Source: Eubacteriales bacterium (GTDB lineage Bacteria; Bacillota; Clostridia; Saccharofermentanales; UBA5734). From it: DNA of 48,995 nt. Both the position numbers and the translations under genes were made by a program. The notes under the pieces are model-generated. The model was not told the DNA's origin and ran no database searches. It was given only the letters and a program-made list of their open reading frames with translations. This document shows positions 1 through 13,671 of this stretch, in pieces. The stretch lies in NCBI GenBank assembly GCA_028695145.1, contig JAQVJP010000005.1, forward strand, positions 1 through 48,995, written 5' to 3'. Within the stretch, counting starts at the first letter, position 1; every line of letters starts with the position of its first letter.

Positions 1-91
1 CACAGTCGCCGCAATTTACCACTTCGCCATTACTAATATCTGCCAGCGCAACAGCGACATTATCTTTTTCATGAATTCGAATCAGTTTCAT
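1..91 (-). CDS. uxaA: Altronate dehydratase N-terminus (UxaA), runs off left edge
   Basis: Reverse complement from ATG at 91 reads MKLIRIHEKDNVAVALADISNGEVVNCGDC..., typical UxaA N-terminus; lies after uxaB. Confidence 0.75.
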   Translation of the reverse strand, partial: MKLIRIHEKDNVAVALADISNGEVVNCGDC

Positions 92-113: not shown

Positions 114-1592
114 TCAAATCAAACTCTTCATCACCGCGTAAGATCCTTCGGCGCGAATCTGCTCAAGATAGCGGGCTGCCTGCTCGGCAAATCCCGGCAG
201 ATTAAGCAAACTATCATCCCACATGCGTTCATTGGCAACAACAGCAGACATCAAATCGCCAGAGTTTTTACCAATCTGCTCAGTGAAAAAATCAATTACC
301 CACTGATCATCTTTAATCTCGTATTTATCGTTATCCCGACTACCCTGGAAGCTGCCATCATCGATTTTGCGGCCACGGCTGTAAAACTCAATAAGCGCGG
401 CAAAAGAGAAAGTCAGCAGTTTAGGCAGTTCACCTTTTACCTTATGATAACCAAGCACAGACGGCATCACTCTCGCCTTCCACTTGGAAATCGAGTTCAG
501 TGAAATGGCCAGCAAAGAGTGATCGATATAAGGGTTACGGAATCTCTCAGCCACCGACGCCGCAAAATCACGCAGCTCAGCCTCCGGCAGTGACAAAGTA
601 GGAATAATCTCAGCAAAAATAGCCTGATTCATATAATCCGCGATCACTTCATCCTGCATGCACTCACGAACAATATTCTGTCCGGCAAGCCAGGCAGCAG
701 GCACCATTGAAGTATGAGCACCGTTTAGAATCCTGACTTTGCGCTGCTTATATGGCGAGTGATCATCAGTCACAATCACCGGCAGACCAGCGGCGGCAAA
801 CGGCATTTCTTCAGCAATATGCTGCGGCCCCTCAATTACCCAAAAAGCAAAAATCTCACAAGTATCAACTATATTGTCAATATAGCCATTCTGCTCATTT
901 ATCTGATTTACTTCAGCGCGTGGATAGCCGGTTACTATTCGATCAACCAGCGTCGAGCAAAAAACATTTTCACTGTTGTTCCAACTGGCAAAAGCCTCCG
1001 GCAACTGCCACAGCTTAATATACTGATCAACACAGCGTTTCAATTCAAGACCATTATTATCTATAAGTTCACATGACAATATGATAAAGCCGGGCAGGCC
1101 TTTTTGATATCGCTCATAGAGAAATCTTGTTAATTTCGCTGGGAAAGAGGATGGTGGTTCCTGGTCAAATTTCGAATCATCCTCAAACACTATGCCAGCT
1201 TCGGTCGTGTTGGAAACTATAAATCTCAGATCCGGATTGGCTGCACATGCAAGCAGAGCTTGATAATCTTCATAAGGATTTATGCAGCGTGATACGCTGG
1301 AAACAACTCTCCGGTCATTTACCTGTTCTCCATTTTGAACACCGCGTTGATAGAGTGTGAACAAACCATCTTGAGCATTGATCAGCTCAGCTGTACCCTG
1401 GGCGATTGGCTGAGTCAGTACGACCTTGCCATTGAAGCCGGCTTTCTCATTCATTATATCTATAAAATAGTCAACAAAAGCCCGCAGGAAATTGCCCTCG
1501 CCGAATTGCAGAACTTTTTCCGGTGCCTCTTTAAGATACCAGTCTTTCTGCTTAGCTTTATTCTCAAGATACTTGTAACTTAAAACTTCCAT
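114..1592 (-). CDS. uxaB: Tagaturonate reductase (mannitol dehydrogenase family)
   Basis: Protein with VLQFGEGNFLRAFVDYF N-term signature; ATG at 1592 preceded by AAAGGA; ORF extends to a TTG at 1613; neighbours uxaC and uxaA. Confidence 0.88.
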   Translation of the reverse strand: MEVLSYKYLENKAKQKDWYLKEAPEKVLQFGEGNFLRAFVDYFIDIMNEKAGFNGKVVLTQPIAQGTAELINAQDGLFTLYQRGVQNGEQVNDRRVVSSVSRCINPYEDYQALLACAANPDLRFIVSNTTEAGIVFEDDSKFDQEPPSSFPAKLTRFLYERYQKGLPGFIILSCELIDNNGLELKRCVDQYIKLWQLPEAFASWNNSENVFCSTLVDRIVTGYPRAEVNQINEQNGYIDNIVDTCEIFAFWVIEGPQHIAEEMPFAAAGLPVIVTDDHSPYKQRKVRILNGAHTSMVPAAWLAGQNIVRECMQDEVIADYMNQAIFAEIIPTLSLPEAELRDFAASVAERFRNPYIDHSLLAISLNSISKWKARVMPSVLGYHKVKGELPKLLTFSFAALIEFYSRGRKIDDGSFQGSRDNDKYEIKDDQWVIDFFTEQIGKNSGDLMSAVVANERMWDDSLLNLPGFAEQAARYLEQIRAEGSYAVMKSLI

Positions 1593-1609
1593 TTGTCGTC
1601 CATCCTTTC

Positions 1610-3022
1610 TCAAACTTCGAAGCCGAAAAATCTTACAGTATTGTTGTAGCAGATATCCTGCACAAGCTGTCCAAGGCCTTCAATATCATTGTGAAGCTCG
1701 CCATTTTCGACCCAGCCGCCAATCAAGTTGCAGAGAATACGGCGGAAATATTCGTGTCTTGTATATGACAAAAATGAGCGGCTGTCAGTCAGCATGCCAA
1801 TGAAGTTTCCAAGTGTTCCCAGATTAGCCAGATCGGTCAGCTGTTTGGTCATCCCTGTTTTGTGATCATTAAACCACCAGGCGGAACCGAGCTGAATCTT
1901 CGAAGGACATTCACCATCTGTCTGGAAACTTCCGGCAATCGTAGCGATAGTTTCATTGTCGTATTGATTAAGCGAATACAGAACCATTTTAGGCAAATTA
2001 CCCTGTACCTGCATGCTATTGAGAAGAGCTACAAGGTTTTTGGCTCCGCCGGCATCTGAAGCGCAATCAAATCCAGTATCCGGACCAAGTTTGTTGAACA
2101 TAATTTCTGAATTATTACGCAAACAGCCATAATGAATCTGCATGACCCAGCCGTATTCATGATACTTTTTGGCAACAGCCTGCAGGACAGCAGTTCTGAA
2201 TTTATCACCGTCCTCTACACTAACCGGTGCGGACATACCGTTTTGCAGAATTTTGTCCAGCTCCGTTTCTGAAGCCGGCGAGCAGACTGGATACTCAAGC
2301 GCATGGTCGGAAGCGCGACAACCGTGTTTAGCAAAATAATCTATACGACGGTTCAAGGCCTCAGTCAAATCAGCGAAATTTTCAATCTTCATACCGGCAG
2401 ACGCGGCCAGAGAAGCAATATAGTCAGGGAACCCCGGTTTATCAATGTTCATAGCTTTGTCAGGTCTGAAGGCCGGAAGAACCTTAACTTCACAACTCTT
2501 GTCTTCTGCTATCTTCTTATGCCAGTGCAGATCGTCGATCGGATCATCAGTAGTGCAAATCAATTTGACATCAGACTGTCTAATTAATCCGCGCACACTC
2601 ATATCGTCCTCAGCAAGACGCTTATTACAAACTTCATAGATCTCAGCCGAGTTTGCGGGCGTCAGAGCATCAGTTATAGCGAAGTATTTTTTCAGTTCAA
2701 GGTAGGTCCAGTGATAGAGCGGATTACCGATACATTTGGGCAGAGTTTCCGCCCAACGGGCAAAAGTTTTATAAGGATCGGTGTCTTTACTGCCGGTTAT
2801 GTCAGCTTCAGGTACGCCGTTGCAGCGCATAGCCCGCCATTTGTAATGATCACCGCCGAGCCAGACTTCTGTAATTGTTTGATAGCGCTTATCTACGGCA
2901 ATATCTTCAGGATTGATATGGCAGTGATAGTCGATAATTGGCATTTTTGCCGCGTAATCATGGTAGAGTTTCTGTGCTGTTTCTGTCTGGAGTAGAAAAT
3001 TTTCATCCATAAATTGTTTCAT
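1610..3022 (-). CDS. uxaC: Glucuronate isomerase
   Basis: 470 aa, PIIDYHCHINPEDIA and FIGMLTDSRSFLSYTRHEYFRRILCNLIG signatures. Confidence 0.93.
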   Translation of the reverse strand: MKQFMDENFLLQTETAQKLYHDYAAKMPIIDYHCHINPEDIAVDKRYQTITEVWLGGDHYKWRAMRCNGVPEADITGSKDTDPYKTFARWAETLPKCIGNPLYHWTYLELKKYFAITDALTPANSAEIYEVCNKRLAEDDMSVRGLIRQSDVKLICTTDDPIDDLHWHKKIAEDKSCEVKVLPAFRPDKAMNIDKPGFPDYIASLAASAGMKIENFADLTEALNRRIDYFAKHGCRASDHALEYPVCSPASETELDKILQNGMSAPVSVEDGDKFRTAVLQAVAKKYHEYGWVMQIHYGCLRNNSEIMFNKLGPDTGFDCASDAGGAKNLVALLNSMQVQGNLPKMVLYSLNQYDNETIATIAGSFQTDGECPSKIQLGSAWWFNDHKTGMTKQLTDLANLGTLGNFIGMLTDSRSFLSYTRHEYFRRILCNLIGGWVENGELHNDIEGLGQLVQDICYNNTVRFFGFEV

Positions 3023-3096: not shown

Positions 3097-4158
3097 CTAA
3101 TACATATGTAAACCGCTGCGAAAAATCACATTTGATTCGGTAAGGATTTTATCTTCCAGCGGTTTATCACCGCGCAGCAGAAAATCGGTCAGAGTTTTGG
3201 CGGCCAACCAGGCCTGTCTTGATGGATTTTTGTACATAATATTATGCATTACGCCCTGTTTCATGCTTTCAACATTTTCGGGGAATATGTCACTACCAAC
3301 AAATCTGATTTTACCTGCCATACCGGATTCTGCTAAAATATTGCTCATAAGAACACTAATACGCGAAGTTACGCTGAATACAGCTGTGATATCTGTACGA
3401 TTCCTAAGAAGCTCTCGAATCTTTCTGGCGGTATCTTCACTGTTGTTATAGCCGTAAACTTTTGCCAGTTTCCAAGACTGGTTGTTTTCCGCCAGATATT
3501 TTTCGAATCCTTCCGTCACAAGATAATGCGAAGGTATCAGCTGATCACCTGCCAGTATCATTATTGTGTCTCCTGCAGTCGTCTGCGAGGCAAGAAGTTC
3601 AGCGGCAATTCGGCCTGTGACTTCATAATCCGGCTGTACAACCGCCAGCCGTGCACTTGCGGAAATATCGTCGCAGGTCAGGACAACCGGGATATTCAGC
3701 TCATTGTAACGCTCAATCGATCTTCGCAGATTCTCATCATCTTCATTCATCCCAACAGTTATCAGACCAGATATTTCGTTATTATAGCGTTTGAGAACAT
3801 CGATGAGCTCGGAACTCTGACTATTAGGAGAGCCATTGTAAAACGGCAGCTCTATCAGATCGATATTAAGATCATTCATTTCGGCAAAATACTGGCGCAC
3901 GCCCTGCCAGACATACGTATAATAAAATCTGCCTTCAGCTGCCGCGCCCGGCAGGCACACAACAATGCGCAGCGGCTTACGTTTAAGTGAAGCGGCAACA
4001 GTATTGATTCTGAAATTATGTTCACGGGCAGCAGCGATAATTTTCTCACGCATAGCCGGACTCACACCCTTCTTGCCGTTGAGAGCGTTATGAACTGTTC
4101 CAGCCGAAACACCGCAATATTCCGCGATATCTTTTATCGTTGTTCTTCTGCCATCCAT
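3097..4158 (-). CDS. LacI family transcriptional regulator
   Basis: N-term HTH TTIKDIAEYCGVSAGTVHNALNGKKGVSPAMREKI plus periplasmic-binding-like domain. Confidence 0.92.
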   Translation of the reverse strand: MDGRRTTIKDIAEYCGVSAGTVHNALNGKKGVSPAMREKIIAAAREHNFRINTVAASLKRKPLRIVVCLPGAAAEGRFYYTYVWQGVRQYFAEMNDLNIDLIELPFYNGSPNSQSSELIDVLKRYNNEISGLITVGMNEDDENLRRSIERYNELNIPVVLTCDDISASARLAVVQPDYEVTGRIAAELLASQTTAGDTIMILAGDQLIPSHYLVTEGFEKYLAENNQSWKLAKVYGYNNSEDTARKIRELLRNRTDITAVFSVTSRISVLMSNILAESGMAGKIRFVGSDIFPENVESMKQGVMHNIMYKNPSRQAWLAAKTLTDFLLRGDKPLEDKILTESNVIFRSGLHMY

Positions 4159-4185: not shown

Positions 4186-4223
4186 AATCACAGATAGATA
4201 AAACGTTTTATCTATTTGTGATT
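4186..4223. promoter_or_regulatory. Candidate LacI-family operator, 38-bp palindrome with one mismatched pair
   Basis: AATCACAGATAGATAAAACGTTTTATCTATTTGTGATT; central 22 bp (4194-4215) is a perfect palindrome; 28 bp upstream of the lacI-type start. Confidence 0.75.
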
Positions 4224-4368
4224 CTAAATCCGGGACCATATCAAGTCAATACTCATCACAATTTTGCTGATATTTTTATGTATTTAGCATAACTTAGTTG
4301 TTCTTTTTTGTTCATGTACGCATTTTTACTATAACGTTTTATGCATGCAGTCACCACTCGATAATATA

Positions 4369-5412
4369 TCAACTCAAACCGGCACAAACCCGCAGAAATT
4401 CACGAATACTCTCATCACTCGTTTTACTATCTATGCCAACGCAGGATATCGATGCCGGACAAGATTCAGCTGCGCCCACAGCTTCGTACAGTCGGCAAAC
4501 CTCCTGCTCAATCTCAACCGCTGACGAGGTTTGCAATGCTACCGGGCTGAACCTGGCATTGATATGTACATTTGGGAACGCAGCTCGCACCTTGGCAACA
4601 TCAGAACCTGCGCCTGCTTCAAGAAAATCTACAGGCACCTGGCTGTAACCGGCAAGCACATGCTCCATGGTAGCCCCGCAGTGGTGTATACCGAAGCTGC
4701 CAAAAGCAGCCGCCAGCTTCAGGTCATATCGCAGAAGGAACTGTTCATATAATTCATTGGAAATCATTTCAACAGAACAATTCGATGTCAGATAGCAACC
4801 GGGAACAGTCTGCCGAACAATCGCGGTTACTCCACCGGAAATATCCGGCGACAGCCTGCGAAATACTTGACCGGTTTGCATTAATGTCGCGGTAATTTTC
4901 GCAAGAAGCTCATCTATAGACTCCGGCTCGATATAATAGCCGGTAAAGAGATTTTGCCCCATCAAGTCAAGAGCGATATTTTGCACGCCCATCAGATTAA
5001 CATAACATTCAACGCGTCCGTAATTATCTTGAAGCCATTCGATCTGCTTGAGAGTTTTCTGCCAGACCAAATTTGAATCAAGCTCCGGCAGTGAAACATC
5101 AGCAATATTGTCTTCATCAAAATCACGGCAGATAACCTGAGGCGAATCATTGGGAGCATAACGAATTTCACAACCCATAATTTCCGACTGCAAATACCCG
5201 GCAGCCAACAGATCACTGCCCAGCAGCGGTCGTGGCAGAGGTTTTTTCTCACCAAGACCATAATCGCCAAAATGGTCATAAAGACAACGTCGCATTTTAA
5301 CATCGGCTTCCATACGATACTTCGGCTCATCAAAAAAATCCTGTGTAAACTCAATGCCCGCGTTCTTGTGCCACCAGGAAGGGTGGAAAGTAATATCATA
5401 TTTCATCTTCAT
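4369..5412 (-). CDS. Uroporphyrinogen decarboxylase (URO-D/MtaA-fold) family protein
   Basis: 347 aa; GIHHCG motif (HxCG zinc-type signature) and URO-D-like overall organisation; overlaps upstream paralog by 4 bp. Confidence 0.75.
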   Translation of the reverse strand: MKMKYDITFHPSWWHKNAGIEFTQDFFDEPKYRMEADVKMRRCLYDHFGDYGLGEKKPLPRPLLGSDLLAAGYLQSEIMGCEIRYAPNDSPQVICRDFDEDNIADVSLPELDSNLVWQKTLKQIEWLQDNYGRVECYVNLMGVQNIALDLMGQNLFTGYYIEPESIDELLAKITATLMQTGQVFRRLSPDISGGVTAIVRQTVPGCYLTSNCSVEMISNELYEQFLLRYDLKLAAAFGSFGIHHCGATMEHVLAGYSQVPVDFLEAGAGSDVAKVRAAFPNVHINARFSPVALQTSSAVEIEQEVCRLYEAVGAAESCPASISCVGIDSKTSDESIREFLRVCAGLS

Positions 5413-6539
5413 TCACCTGCCATTTCATGAAGCATGTTGTATATCTGTGTCTGTTCCTGTACATCCCGCCCATATGTCACCGCGATCAGTTTAAGTCCGG
5501 GGCGCCAGATACGGCCGAACTGTTCCTGTACCTGCCGCAAATCACCTACACACCGTGCGTTTAGCACAATCTGGCTGCAGGCGAATTCGCGGCCAAATAT
5601 TTCAGGATCATTGGGGGACGGATCAGTCTGAGCGCCAAAAGCAGCGTCAACCGTTCTCAGTCCGGCAATAGCTTGTACCAAATCTATTTTATTCTCCCAA
5701 TTACCACACGAATGAAAAACCGCACCACCAAACTCAGCTCCCAGCAGCTCATCATACGGTTTGAAGATCTCACCGTAATCATCAGCAGATATCATGATGG
5801 CATTATCATCACTGAAGCCAATACCGGCAAAAGCCCGGCTCGAGGCGAACCCGTGCCCGGGAAGTGCCAGACAATCGCCGATCAAATCCTTCTGCTTGCG
5901 CACAAAATCAATCAGCAGATTCGTGCAAACGCCGGCAGCAGCCCGTACTTGTTCCGGATCATCATATATTTCCAAAAAAAGATTAGTAATCGGCAGCAAA
6001 TAACTGAGCATATTAAAAGGCGACTGAATATCTGTGTATGATATCGGCACTCTGCCCTTGGTTTTATCAAGAAAGTATTCGATCATCTCCAGCATATGCC
6101 GGCCAACGGATGTTTTCTCGATCGGCAGCGGTTCATGTTTGAGTATTTCAGCACAAGACTCAAATTGTGGATTTACAGCTGGAGCTTGTCCGGGATGCCA
6201 TGTATACTCAGAACCAAAACAGGCACTGATATAACCAATCCCGTACCAAGGTTCGAGAAAATTAGCAATATCGGCTGGATAATCCATACTGGCAGCAAGC
6301 GCGCTTAGCTGCAGCTCAAGAGACTGTTTTCTGTCAGCACATTTATCATAAAACACGCCATCAGCTCGAAACCGCCTGTACACCAGCAGACCCTCACTGG
6401 CTGAGGCAAAATTCCTGTTACGCTCAAGAAGCGCTGACTCATATTCAGCATATGCGGATAAATCAAACTGATCCGACGATAACGGTTTTACGTAAGTGCT
6501 CTGGGCATCACGAAGAGAAGTATCGAAACTTGCGGACAT
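5409..6539 (-). CDS. Uroporphyrinogen decarboxylase (URO-D/MtaA-fold) family protein, second copy
   Basis: 376 aa; VFHSCGNWENK (HxCG), URO-D-like. Confidence 0.72.
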   Translation of the reverse strand: MSASFDTSLRDAQSTYVKPLSSDQFDLSAYAEYESALLERNRNFASASEGLLVYRRFRADGVFYDKCADRKQSLELQLSALAASMDYPADIANFLEPWYGIGYISACFGSEYTWHPGQAPAVNPQFESCAEILKHEPLPIEKTSVGRHMLEMIEYFLDKTKGRVPISYTDIQSPFNMLSYLLPITNLFLEIYDDPEQVRAAAGVCTNLLIDFVRKQKDLIGDCLALPGHGFASSRAFAGIGFSDDNAIMISADDYGEIFKPYDELLGAEFGGAVFHSCGNWENKIDLVQAIAGLRTVDAAFGAQTDPSPNDPEIFGREFACSQIVLNARCVGDLRQVQEQFGRIWRPGLKLIAVTYGRDVQEQTQIYNMLHEMAGE

Positions 6540-7898: not shown

Positions 7899-8225
7899 TC
7901 AGGCGAACATCTGCAGCAGCACCATATAAAACAGCGTGCCGACACCAATACTGAGCAGCGCGTTGCGCTTCCAGCTGTGGATAACAGCAATTACAATAAT
8001 CGCTCCCGCCTCCGGAAAACCATGCGGCCAAGAGCTCAGACTTACATCTTTGAGACAGTATACTACCAGCATACCGATAATCGGATAAGGCAGTACACGA
8101 CCCAGATACTTCACAAACTCAGGTGTTTTCTTCCCGTCTGGAAATAATAGAAACGGTAGAAATCTGGTAAAAGCGGTCACCATCGACATGATGACAAAAA
8201 ATATCAATGTTTGCCAGAAAGTCAT
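7899..8225 (-). CDS. azlD: AzlD family branched-chain amino acid transport protein
   Basis: 108 aa hydrophobic, TRFLPFLLFP motif, 4-bp overlap with azlC-like gene. Confidence 0.8.
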   Translation of the reverse strand: MTFWQTLIFFVIMSMVTAFTRFLPFLLFPDGKKTPEFVKYLGRVLPYPIIGMLVVYCLKDVSLSSWPHGFPEAGAIIVIAVIHSWKRNALLSIGVGTLFYMVLLQMFA

Positions 8226-8932
8226 AACAACTCACCTGCTTTCCTATCAAGCAGTTTCCTACCGGCAGCAACAGATCCCAGAATAATAAGCAGTGTCGGA
8301 ATTATGAAATTAGACGGTCCGAAAACCCAAAGAGCCATCAACGATGCGAATATGCCCATCAAAGCAGGCAGACGATTGGCCACAATTCGCCACTGATCGA
8401 GAAAAATTACGGTAAATAATGCTGTCAATACAAATTCAAGCCCCTGTGTGCTTATCTCGAGAGCACCACCAAGCAGACTACCAATAACGCCGCCGCTGAC
8501 CCAATAGAAGTGATCGAGCAGGGTAACAGCCAGAACAAAACTGCGTTTATCTATACCTTCCGGAGCTTCATGCGCGCTAAGCACGGAAAAAGTCTCATCA
8601 GTCAGACCGAAGATTAAATATGCTTTTGCCCGGCCCATACCTTCAAATCGGCCCAGCATCGACAAGCCGTAAAAAATATGACGTGCGTTTACCATCAGTG
8701 TCATAACAGCAGTGTTAACCGGGTTAAACCCGGCGGCAAGCAGGCTGACGGCAACGAACTGCATCGAACCGGCATAAGTCGTCAAGCTGGCCAGAAATGT
8801 CCAGCCCAAACCATAACCTATACTATCCATTAAAACGCCATAAGCGGCGCCAAGCACCAGATAACCTGTCAAAACCGGTATTGTCAACGGCCAGGCAGCC
8901 TTGAGAGCACGCCCGAACATCACAGACCTCAT
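8222..8932 (-). CDS. azlC: AzlC family ABC-independent branched-chain amino acid permease
   Basis: 236 aa; [29 protein letters not shown] signatures. Confidence 0.88.
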
Positions 8933-9948
8933 GAGCGAAAAAACGGCGCGTACTTAGCCGCCAGTTTTATAGCCTCGACCATGCTTACGGCACTGGCAAT
9001 GCCTTTGCCGGCGAGATCAAACGCCGTCCCGTGATCAACGGACGTCCTCAGAAAAGGTAAACCGTTGGTTATAGCGATCGTACGATAGAAATCATAAGTT
9101 TTGGTCGCGATATGTCCCTGATCGTGATATAGGGACAAAACCGAGTGATACTTACCTTCCAGTGCCAGATTGAAAACAGAGTCGGCACCAATCGGCCCCT
9201 CAACAGGGTAACCCTCGTTTTGCAGCTGTAATACGGCTGGGATCACATGATCAACCTCTTCGCTGCCAAACAGCCCATGTTCACCACTATGAGGATTAAG
9301 ACCAGCAATAGCCATCCTGCCTTCTGAGATACCAAGACGCTTAAGCGCGGCAAAACAACGATGCGCAGTCGCGACAATCCGTTCTCTTGTAACAAGATCA
9401 CAAGCCTGACGCAGTGATACATGTCTCGACAGGAAGAAAACCCGCATACCCGCGACTTCAAACATAGTCAGCGGATCAGGTGTTCCGGTAAGCTCAGCGA
9501 AGATTTCTGTATGTCCAATATAAGGCACATGTCCTGCCTGCAGGCTCTCTTTGTTAATAGGAGTTGTGGCCACCGCGTCCACCAGACCTCCATTGGCAAG
9601 TTCAATAGATTTTTCAATATACTGATATGCGGCACGCCCGCAAACAGCCGACACCTCACCCACTTTATACTGGTCGAGTGAAATATTATCCATATCGATC
9701 AAATTAAGCTTATCCGGCTCATACTGACCCTGCTCCGGGCTGCTGATTACATTTATTGTAATATCAGCTTGTGTGATGGTAACAGCCCGCTGCATGACCT
9801 GAAGATCACCAATCACCACACATCTGGCAAGATTATCCAGCTCATGTCCGGCCAGAGATTTGACAGTTATTTCCGGACCTATACCGGCAGGATCGCCGGT
9901 CGGTATCGCTATAAGCGGTTTTGAATTGCATAATTTATCATCGTTCAT
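8929..9948 (-). CDS. pdxA: PdxA family dehydrogenase (4-hydroxythreonine-4-phosphate dehydrogenase or PdxA2-like)
   Basis: [54 protein letters not shown]. Confidence 0.88.
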
Positions 9949-11589: not shown

Positions 11590-11743
11590 AGTTTTGCTCC
11601 TTCAATTATATTAATTGCTATTTGCTGGTATAATTATAACAGATAAAGGCAGGCCAACGAGGGTTAACCTCAGTTTGACCTGTCTTTTTACGTTTTCGCC
11701 GGCATTTATGATCGTACAACGCGCACCGAGGGAGGACTGCCGC

Positions 11744-13671
11744 ATGATGAGTGGAAGAATCAGTACAGGACACCACGAATTGGATACAGTAATAGATTAC
11801 CTGCGCCCGGGAGACAATGTAGTGTGGCAGATCGATACAATTGAGCAATACAGGCAATACGCCAATCGTTTTGTTGATTACGCCGCAGAAAACGGCCACA
11901 CAGTTCACTATATCCGCTTCGGTTCACATAGTCCGGTCGCAGATACCGATCGCCATCCCAAACTGGTAGAAGTACATACACCTGACAGCGAGGCTGGCTT
12001 CGAGAGTTTCGCCAGCGAGCTGCATCAGATAATCAGTACAATCGGACGCGATGCCTGGTATGTTTTCGACTGTCTGTCAGACCTGCTTGAACGCTGGTCT
12101 TCTGACTTGATGCTGGGCAACTTCTTCCGAATTACCTGTCCTTATCTTTATGAACTTGATACTATAGCCTGGTTCAGTCTAATGCGCGGTCAACACTCAT
12201 ATGCCACTATCGCCAGAATACGCGAAACGACTCAATTGCTGCTTGACCTGTATAGAATTGAACAAACCGATTATATACACCCGCTAAAAGTCTGGCAGCG
12301 GTATTCACCTACGATGTTTCTGCCCCACAGACTCGACGGCGACAAATGCAGACCGATCAGCAGCAGCGCGGACGCAGCAGTACTCTTCTCCTCAGTACAA
12401 ACAAGACAGCAACAAGCAGAGCGACAGATTGACTTCTGGGACAGGCTTTTTCTAACAGCTGAGCAGGCTGCGGATTTGTGTCAGGACAAACCGGAAGAAG
12501 ATCCTTACTGCCACAGAATTTTCGTTAGACTATGTGGGCTTCTTATCGGAGACGAAGGACGTATAGGCGAGCTGGCACAACACTGGTTCAATCTCTCAGA
12601 CTTGATCGAAATCTCCAGACGCCAGATCGGCACGGGAAAAATTGGCGGCAAAGCCGTTGGCATGCTTCTGTCAAGAAAAATCACAGAGGAAGTATTTCTC
12701 AGTCAGAAAAGCATACAAGCCGAACCTCACGACTCTTTTTTCCTCGGTTCAGACCTCTTCTATACTTATATCGTCCATAACGGCTGGTGGAAATTGCGTA
12801 TGCAGCAGAAATCAACCAGCGGCTATTTCAATAGCGCCGAAAAACTGCGCGATCACCTTCGCAACGGCGAGTTCCCAGCTGCGATTCGCGAAAAATTTCA
12901 GCAAATGCTGGAATATTTCGGCCAATCTCCGATCATAGTTCGTTCATCAAGTTTGCTTGAAGACGAGTTCGGCAACGCCTTTGCCGGTAAATATTGAGTT
13001 TACAATCAATCCTGGTATGAACGGTGATTATCTGATCAGCCTGCTGCAGTGCAGGCCTCTGCAAACTAAACAATTCGGCTCCACAATCAACTTCCCGGAA
13101 AATACCCCGGCAGACAAAATCCTATTGCAGGCGGAAGGGGGATTCATGGGGGGGCAACTCCTGCATCACTGCAGATACGATCATTTATGTCGAACCGGCT
13201 GCTTATACCGTTCTGCCTGAACAAGACAGATATCAGACAGCACGCATAATCGGACTGCTTAATAATATCTTAGGCCAAAACAAGCAAGCTGGTAATATTA
13301 TGCTCATTGGTCCTGGACGCTGGGGCACAACAACACCCTCCCTCGGCATTCCCATAAAATTCTCCGAGATAAATCATATTAATATATTGGCCGAAGAAGC
13401 GTTTGAAACAGCAGGAATGATACCGGAGATCTCCTTCGGCAGTCACTTTTTCCTGGATCTTGTGGAAGCGGATATTTTCTATCTCGCTATCATGCCGCAC
13501 AAGAGAGGCGTCGTCTATCGGCCCGGTTTGTTGACCAGCCAGCCGAACCTGCTCGCTGATATTTTGCCCGCTCATTCAGATTACGCATCCGTGATCAAGG
13601 TTCTGCGTCCAGATCGGAATTTCACACTCTTCTCAGATATTTCCAGTCAGAAATTGCTTATATGCCAATGA
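11744..13671 (+). pseudogene. PEP/pyruvate-binding domain protein (PPDK N-terminal-like), disrupted
   Basis: Conserved segments occur in three frames: IIVRSSSLLEDEFGNAFAGKY* (11744-12997), PVNIEFTINPGMNGDYLISLLQCRPLQTK...GFMGG (frame of 12957), then MLIGPGRWGTTTPSLGIPIKFSEINHINIL... (13300-13671). Confidence 0.85.

Follow-up and report, generated by a model that had tools for sequence, protein, structure and literature searches.

A conserved pair of MtaA-like proteins beside hexuronate genes: a candidate two-subunit O-demethylase of methylated sugar acids

Our analysis of the window, that is, the whole 48,995-nucleotide stretch of Eubacteriales DNA, centres on two adjacent genes, uroA and uroB, which encode divergent proteins of the URO-D superfamily next to genes of hexuronate catabolism. 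The reading we prefer, to which we give a little under an even chance, is that UroAB, as a pair of subunits, acts as a corrinoid-dependent O-demethylase on methylated uronates or sugars and uses corrinoid proteins encoded elsewhere. The fold class, the zinc-ligand pattern of UroB, the probably old pairing, the sugar-acid neighbourhoods and the co-occurrence with corrinoid proteins and activase are observations; from them we infer the heterodimer, the demethylation, the substrate and the partnership with those corrinoid proteins. Somewhat more tentatively, the pair could represent a family of such two-subunit O-demethylases for methyl-ether sugars and uronates in anaerobic gut and environmental bacteria, with divergent URO-D-fold subunits encoded in sugar-acid operons and corrinoid proteins, encoded elsewhere, that they share.

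In the proposed mechanism, UroA and UroB would form a heterodimeric URO-D-superfamily methyltransferase that O-demethylates a methylated uronate or a similar plant sugar (e.g., 4-O-methylglucuronate), and the demethylated sugar acid would enter the UxaC-UxaB-UxaA pathway. UroB would hold the catalytic zinc (His243, Cys245, Cys324) and UroA would assist it, either by shaping the site or by binding the substrate. The carrier taking up the methyl group would be a corrinoid protein encoded on another contig of the same genome (G000, contig C173), kept active by a RACo-type activase (contig C63). Given that the pair stays beside plant-sugar-acid genes in related bacteria, and that these encode a corrinoid (vitamin B12) methyl carrier elsewhere, it may serve to demethylate plant sugars in the absence of oxygen.

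Methyl-ether sugars are common in plants, as 4-O-methylglucuronate in xylan and arabinogalactan and as 2-O-methyl-fucose and 2-O-methyl-xylose in RG-II, and their methyl-ether groups can be removed by oxygen-dependent enzymes. In the open-access literature we found no description of an anaerobic sugar O-demethylase, and no papers on sugar substrates for URO-D-superfamily methyltransferases. If the proposal is true, fibre breakdown would be joined to one-carbon metabolism in the gut, and a function would be available for part of the large 'uroporphyrinogen decarboxylase family' set, which is probably misnamed. A candidate pair with defined neighbours makes anaerobic sugar O-demethylation directly testable.

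The uroA-uroB pair and its predicted zinc site

The genes and the codons of the motifs discussed below are the following:
5409..6539, minus strand: uroA, URO-D superfamily protein of 376 aa with an HSCG motif and without an invariant third zinc ligand
4369..5412, minus strand: uroB, URO-D superfamily protein of 347 aa with a complete MtaA-type zinc triad
5706..5714, minus strand: codons of UroA His276-Ser-Cys278, invariant in 19 orthologues
4684..4686, minus strand: codon of UroB His243, predicted zinc ligand 1, aligned with the His of MtaA HICG and invariant in 12 orthologues
4678..4680, minus strand: codon of UroB Cys245, predicted zinc ligand 2, aligned with the Cys of MtaA HICG and invariant
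4441..4443, minus strand: codon of UroB Cys324, predicted zinc ligand 3, aligned with the Cys of MtaA APGCGI and invariant

Both open reading frames have the lengths, positions and strand given in the preliminary description and, judging by their conservation, they are no chance ORF pair, since they represent two separate protein families that are ~60% identical across genera. The 4-bp overlap (ATGA) reported between them exists only if UroB begins at its first ATG, and the UroB orthologues begin with MKYD..., which corresponds to the second ATG (5406) and would give a protein of 345 aa and a gap of 2 bp in place of the overlap. Because the orthologue starts match this second ATG, the junction in the window genome may be a 2-bp gap, although the overlap is unambiguous in several relatives (e.g., L056, L057, L060, L066).

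UroA and UroB score above the gathering cutoff of the Pfam URO-D family (PF01208; 38.8 and 43.2 bits, cutoff 23.9). Among NCBIfam models, weak matches far under the cutoffs were found solely to methylcobamide:CoM methyltransferase types (MtaA, MtbA, MtaA/CmuA), with 29.3 and 19.7 bits for the pair against TIGR01463 (MtaA/CmuA; cutoff 235.4). Sequence searches of the PDB, profiles included, found no relative of either protein, and relatives were found there by fold comparison alone. Confident AlphaFold models of the single proteins (mean pLDDT of 92.7 for UroA and 89.6 for UroB) had MtaA and UROD as top Foldseek matches with a probability of 1.00, the closest solved fold for both being the methylcobamide:CoM methyltransferase MtaA of M. 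mazei (4AY8/4AY7; TM-score ~0.6-0.7, at an identity of only 17-18%), followed by UROD structures. These results support the view that the pair is MtaA-like rather than HemE-like, and agree with the earlier suggestion of a corrinoid:thiol methyltransferase style. Identification of the proteins as heme-pathway uroporphyrinogen decarboxylases, for which the Pfam domain name is the only argument, was rejected and we regard it as having a negligible probability: HemE shares the superfamily fold, but no HemE model of NCBIfam matches UroA or UroB at E<=0.1, none of the five URO-D matches of the genome is recognised as HemE, the HemE reference lacks the H-x-C motif borne by UroA and UroB, and HemE, which occurs in a different context, has no H-x-C...C zinc site.

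A zinc site of the HxCG type had been described for both proteins. The motifs are present and invariant in both (HHCG in 12 UroB orthologues, HSCG in 19 UroA orthologues), but the full triad is found in UroB only. In the alignment of UroB with MtaA all three zinc-site positions are kept (HICG as HHCG, GCG as SCVG), and the three residues H243-x-C245...C324 are invariant in 12/12 orthologues. This reading takes as its basis the His and Cys of HICG and the Cys of GCG in MtaA, which are the established zinc ligands of that enzyme. The stretch of UroA that matches the region of the third Cys reads LIAVTY, with no invariant Cys at that position. Since the third ligand is kept in UroB and is not invariant in UroA, the two proteins differ in kind, with UroB as the likely metal-bearing subunit.

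Distribution and gene neighbourhoods

UroA orthologues occur in few genomes and within narrow taxonomic limits: with mechanical ORF calls on sampled genomes, and with independence at the genus level uncontrolled, they were found at 56-63% identity in 15/397 Lachnospiraceae (56-62% in this family), in Butyricicoccus and in two Clostridia MAGs. The class of the window itself (391 sampled genomes) has relatives of only 24-32% identity, which makes it probable that the pair was acquired or is seldom retained there. No viral carriers and no plasmid copies of the pair were found. The genes are in tandem at 12/19 UroA loci, and UroB was found in 16/19 UroA-positive genomes, four of which carry it away from uroA (e.g., near a GH43 gene in L103 and beside a response-regulator gene in L100 and L102); it was not detected in 3 UroA-positive genomes. 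UroA and UroB fall into separate clades of the tree. A distant tandem pair (L088), found in a second genome of the class to which the window belongs, has one member on the UroB side (support of 1.00) and the other on the UroA side (0.94), so that the pairing is probably old. The evidence does not include two proteins first read by eye as URO-D, L102:360-1493, which has no Pfam match, and its relative L089_7.

Downstream of uroAB, on the same strand, the window carries lacI, uxaC, uxaB and the first codons of uxaA:
4197..4212, no strand assigned: perfect palindrome GATAAAACGTTTTATC in the uroB-lacI gap, a candidate operator for a LacI-family regulator
3097..4158, minus strand: lacI-family regulator, whose relatives recur beside uroAB in L056, L060, L061 and L069
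1610..3022, minus strand: uxaC, glucuronate/galacturonate isomerase (NCBIfam PRK02925 equivalog, above cutoff)
114..1613, minus strand: uxaB, tagaturonate reductase (NCBIfam PRK03643, above cutoff)
1..91, minus strand: first part of the altronate dehydratase gene uxaA, which runs off the contig

The position upstream of a lacI-uxaCBA block, as first described, is thus borne out, with uxaA truncated by the contig end; the reverse complement of 1-113 reads MKLIRIHEKDNVAVAL... and resembles UxaA of relatives. A second, weaker copy of the palindrome lies at 4328-4343, and a version with one mismatch is found in L061 (at 11977), likewise in the gap between uroB and lacI. As this gap, of 210 bp in the window, contains the palindrome and separates the two genes, uroAB may be transcribed apart from lacI-uxaCBA. 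Elsewhere in the window, a PdxA-family dehydrogenase (PRK03743) and an AzlC-like membrane protein are encoded with a 4-bp overlap near uroA (8222-9948, minus strand), and two adjacent ORFs of 460 and 123 aa (11615-13671, plus strand) may be fragments of a single disrupted gene.

Hexuronate genes accompany 6/12 tandem pairs (the window, L057, L061, L064, L069 and L070). Their order takes at least three forms, and the LacI-family regulators fall into two groups; L061, L064 and L069 also contain a TRAP transporter and a hydrolase resembling pectin acetylesterase or acetylxylan esterase. Sugar ABC transporters and GH31, GH3, GH120, apiosidase or alpha-L-fucosidase genes are found at other UroA loci, many of these family names resting on sequence reading and part of them being checked with Pfam or NCBIfam, and four UroA loci (L053, L055, L063, L066) lie amid core genes. 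The link between uroAB and sugar genes is therefore strong but not universal, and the recurrence of sugar-acid genes beside the pair runs counter to the view that it has no conserved neighbourhood, which the preliminary description had named as grounds for abandoning its idea. It would be rather improbable, in our judgement, that uroAB is functionally unlinked to hexuronates, as an accessory pair that landed by chance beside uxa genes. The unrelated surroundings of the four core-gene loci are what one would expect in that case; six uxa-linked pairs in twelve, however, have a binomial probability of 8e-11 to 5e-8 at 0.7-2% per locus (an estimate that overstates the case, as the tree shows that the uroAB loci are not fully independent), the gene orders differ, most other loci have sugar transporters or glycoside hydrolases, and plasmid copies are lacking.

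Two distant URO-D/TRAP operons have a pyruvate-type aldolase in place of uxa genes: L088 reads IclR, DapA-like aldolase, TRAP transporter, URO-D, URO-D, and L099 is similar, with an HpcH aldolase (IclR-HpcH-TRAP-URO-D-URO-D) and both URO-Ds on the UroB side. They bring in the main rival to our proposal, which we consider unlikely although by no means negligible, namely that UroAB is a zinc-dependent TIM-barrel enzyme of non-methyl sugar-acid chemistry that uses no corrinoid. Such an enzyme would catalyse decarboxylation, isomerisation, dehydration or C-C cleavage and pass its product to the Uxa pathway or, among the relatives, to a pyruvate aldolase. Both operons look self-contained without a corrinoid gene, and the third Cys is lacking in many URO-D proteins of sugar clusters; yet the H-x-C...C triad of UroB is typical of methyltransferases and not of known decarboxylases, and the closest fold is that of MtaA. 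For an O-demethylase, these aldolase-bearing operons count as evidence against, as they fit other sugar-acid chemistry equally well, and so does the scarcity of GH67: an alpha-glucuronidase of this family was found in only 3/19 UroA-positive genomes and is absent from the window genome, and we rejected GH67 as the supplier of 4-O-methylglucuronate.

Corrinoid proteins and the methyl acceptor

The window has no gene for a corrinoid protein or an activase, as was first noted, but the genome encodes both, on the contigs named above. A stand-alone corrinoid protein, defined as an open frame under 400 aa, is present in 18/19 UroA-positive genomes, G392 having only a MetH-length corrinoid match. Within Lachnospiraceae it was found in 15/15 UroA-positive genomes versus 15/88 UroA-negative ones (Fisher 4e-10, relatedness ignored), and a RACo activase in 15/15 versus 217/382 (p=2.6e-4); the activase is also present in the 4/4 further UroA-positive genomes (19/19 overall). 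These co-occurrence statistics are corrected neither for phylogeny nor for the many other URO-D proteins of the genomes. The corrinoid class that is usually beside a PocR-AraC regulator, assigned by reading identity to two reference proteins, is present in 9/15 versus 7/88 genomes (p=1.5e-5). The co-occurrence lifts the methyl-transfer link above the speculation as which it had been offered, with methyl transfer and its substrate both still proposals.

No corrinoid gene was found within ~10 kb of any of the 19 UroA loci. This weighs against an O-demethylase, because characterised systems are usually clustered (PMC10418091), and it favours non-methyl chemistry. Against that rival, the co-occurrence with corrinoid proteins would have to be incidental. 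One corrinoid gene (L089) was not used as support, since it lies ~7.8 kb from a UroA-like protein and is convergent with its neighbour.

Several clusters link corrinoid genes to sugars. In the UroA-positive genome G649 (L115), GH2, a glucuronoyl-esterase-like gene and GH95 lie divergently to a corrinoid gene. L116:3-6852, from the UroA-positive genome G732, contains sugar ABC genes, a sugar-binding protein, an L-rhamnose mutarotase and a URO-D, with a corrinoid protein across a LacI-like gene, and is a possible methyl-rhamnose demethylation cluster. In G398 (L125:2393-14499) sugar ABC permeases, a corrinoid protein, a RACo activase, a URO-D, an FGGY kinase and a GH3 are encoded on one strand, with a PocR regulator on the opposite one, so that this may be a full operon for corrinoid-based sugar demethylation, of a type other than UroAB. 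In G462 (L126) a corrinoid gene adjoins a URO-D and sugar ABC permeases. These clusters back the general idea of a URO-D plus corrinoid protein in sugar catabolism and the window pair only indirectly, since their URO-Ds are distinct from UroA and UroB, and since UroA is absent from two of the four genomes.

The acceptor side is the weak point of the O-demethylase model. In family searches of the window genome FolP was the only pterin-binding protein, and neither a MetH activation domain nor a folate-corrinoid methyltransferase (MT II) was found; the standard folate acceptor step is accordingly either missing or in an assembly gap (the genome is 98.7% complete). MtvA-like genes are present in some UroA-positive relatives (e.g., L095, L097). 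The lack of a folate acceptor enzyme counts against O-demethylation, as do the MetH-length match of G392 and the three genomes without UroB, and the lack of a detected MT II speaks for non-methyl chemistry. It would also suit a pair that transfers methyl groups from a methyl-corrinoid to a thiol such as homocysteine in the manner of MtaA, or that methylates a thiol directly with a methyl-sugar, and is not the first-step O-demethylase. The complete triad of UroB is as in MtaA, where zinc binds the thiol, and a homocysteine-methyltransferase-like gene (named by sequence reading) runs divergently from the corrinoid gene of Butyricicoccus (G391). Nevertheless, the window genome has a much closer MtaA relative, a URO-D-thioredoxin fusion (220 bits), and a housekeeping second-step enzyme would leave the sugar-acid neighbourhoods unexplained; we think a role in thiol transfer improbable.

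Relation to known systems and other URO-D proteins of the genome

The URO-D superfamily includes the corrinoid O-demethylases OdmB, VdmB, MtvB and MtoB (PMC13222342, PMC10418091); its known members comprise aromatic O-demethylases and haloalkane enzymes, and clades whose substrates are unknown have been noted (PMC13222342). UroAB resembles these enzymes and the haloalkane enzyme CdmB in its superfamily, in its occurrence in anaerobic Bacillota and in having a genome-encoded corrinoid protein and activase and, if our proposal holds, it would share methyl ether substrates with OdmB, VdmB, MtvB and MtoB. It differs in that the substrates described for those enzymes are aromatic ethers or haloalkanes, that CdmB is a homodimer (PMC13222342) and that the corrinoid gene of those systems is normally clustered. 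Our tree, in which URO-Ds from corrinoid clusters stood in for the characterised enzymes, has weak deep nodes and does not establish one clade with UroA and UroB. From MtaA, with which UroB shares equivalent zinc ligands, UroAB is set apart by being a conserved two-gene pair, by the missing third ligand of UroA and by a sugar-acid neighbourhood with no coenzyme M context. The MtaA-like mlp clusters, proposed for methyl-sulfur or methyl-selenium compounds (PMC10418091), are similar in having several MtaA-like proteins, a corrinoid protein and an activase, often without a folate methyltransferase; unlike UroAB, the Mlp proteins are nearer to MtaA (~30% identity), are clustered with corrinoid genes and have been proposed for substrates other than sugars. 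UroAB thus belongs to the URO-D superfamily, yet it scores below the MtaA/CmuA cutoff and lacks the clustering with a corrinoid gene seen in O-demethylases.

Other URO-D proteins of the window genome are also found next to sugar genes. On contig C192 a single frame of 1307 aa (L073:8992-12915, minus strand) joins a URO-D (residues ~92-332) to a GH78-type alpha-L-rhamnosidase (884-1230). Its neighbours are a sugar ABC transporter and a further URO-D of 351 aa with an HSCG motif; the fusion is a direct physical link between a URO-D and a glycosidase, and its URO-D lacks the H-x-C motif. The URO-D-thioredoxin fusion (494 aa) is encoded on contig C197 (L072:1503-7136, minus strand), directly downstream of lacI, xylose isomerase and an FGGY kinase-like gene, and its homologue in G393, 61% identical, adjoins a corrinoid/activase operon.
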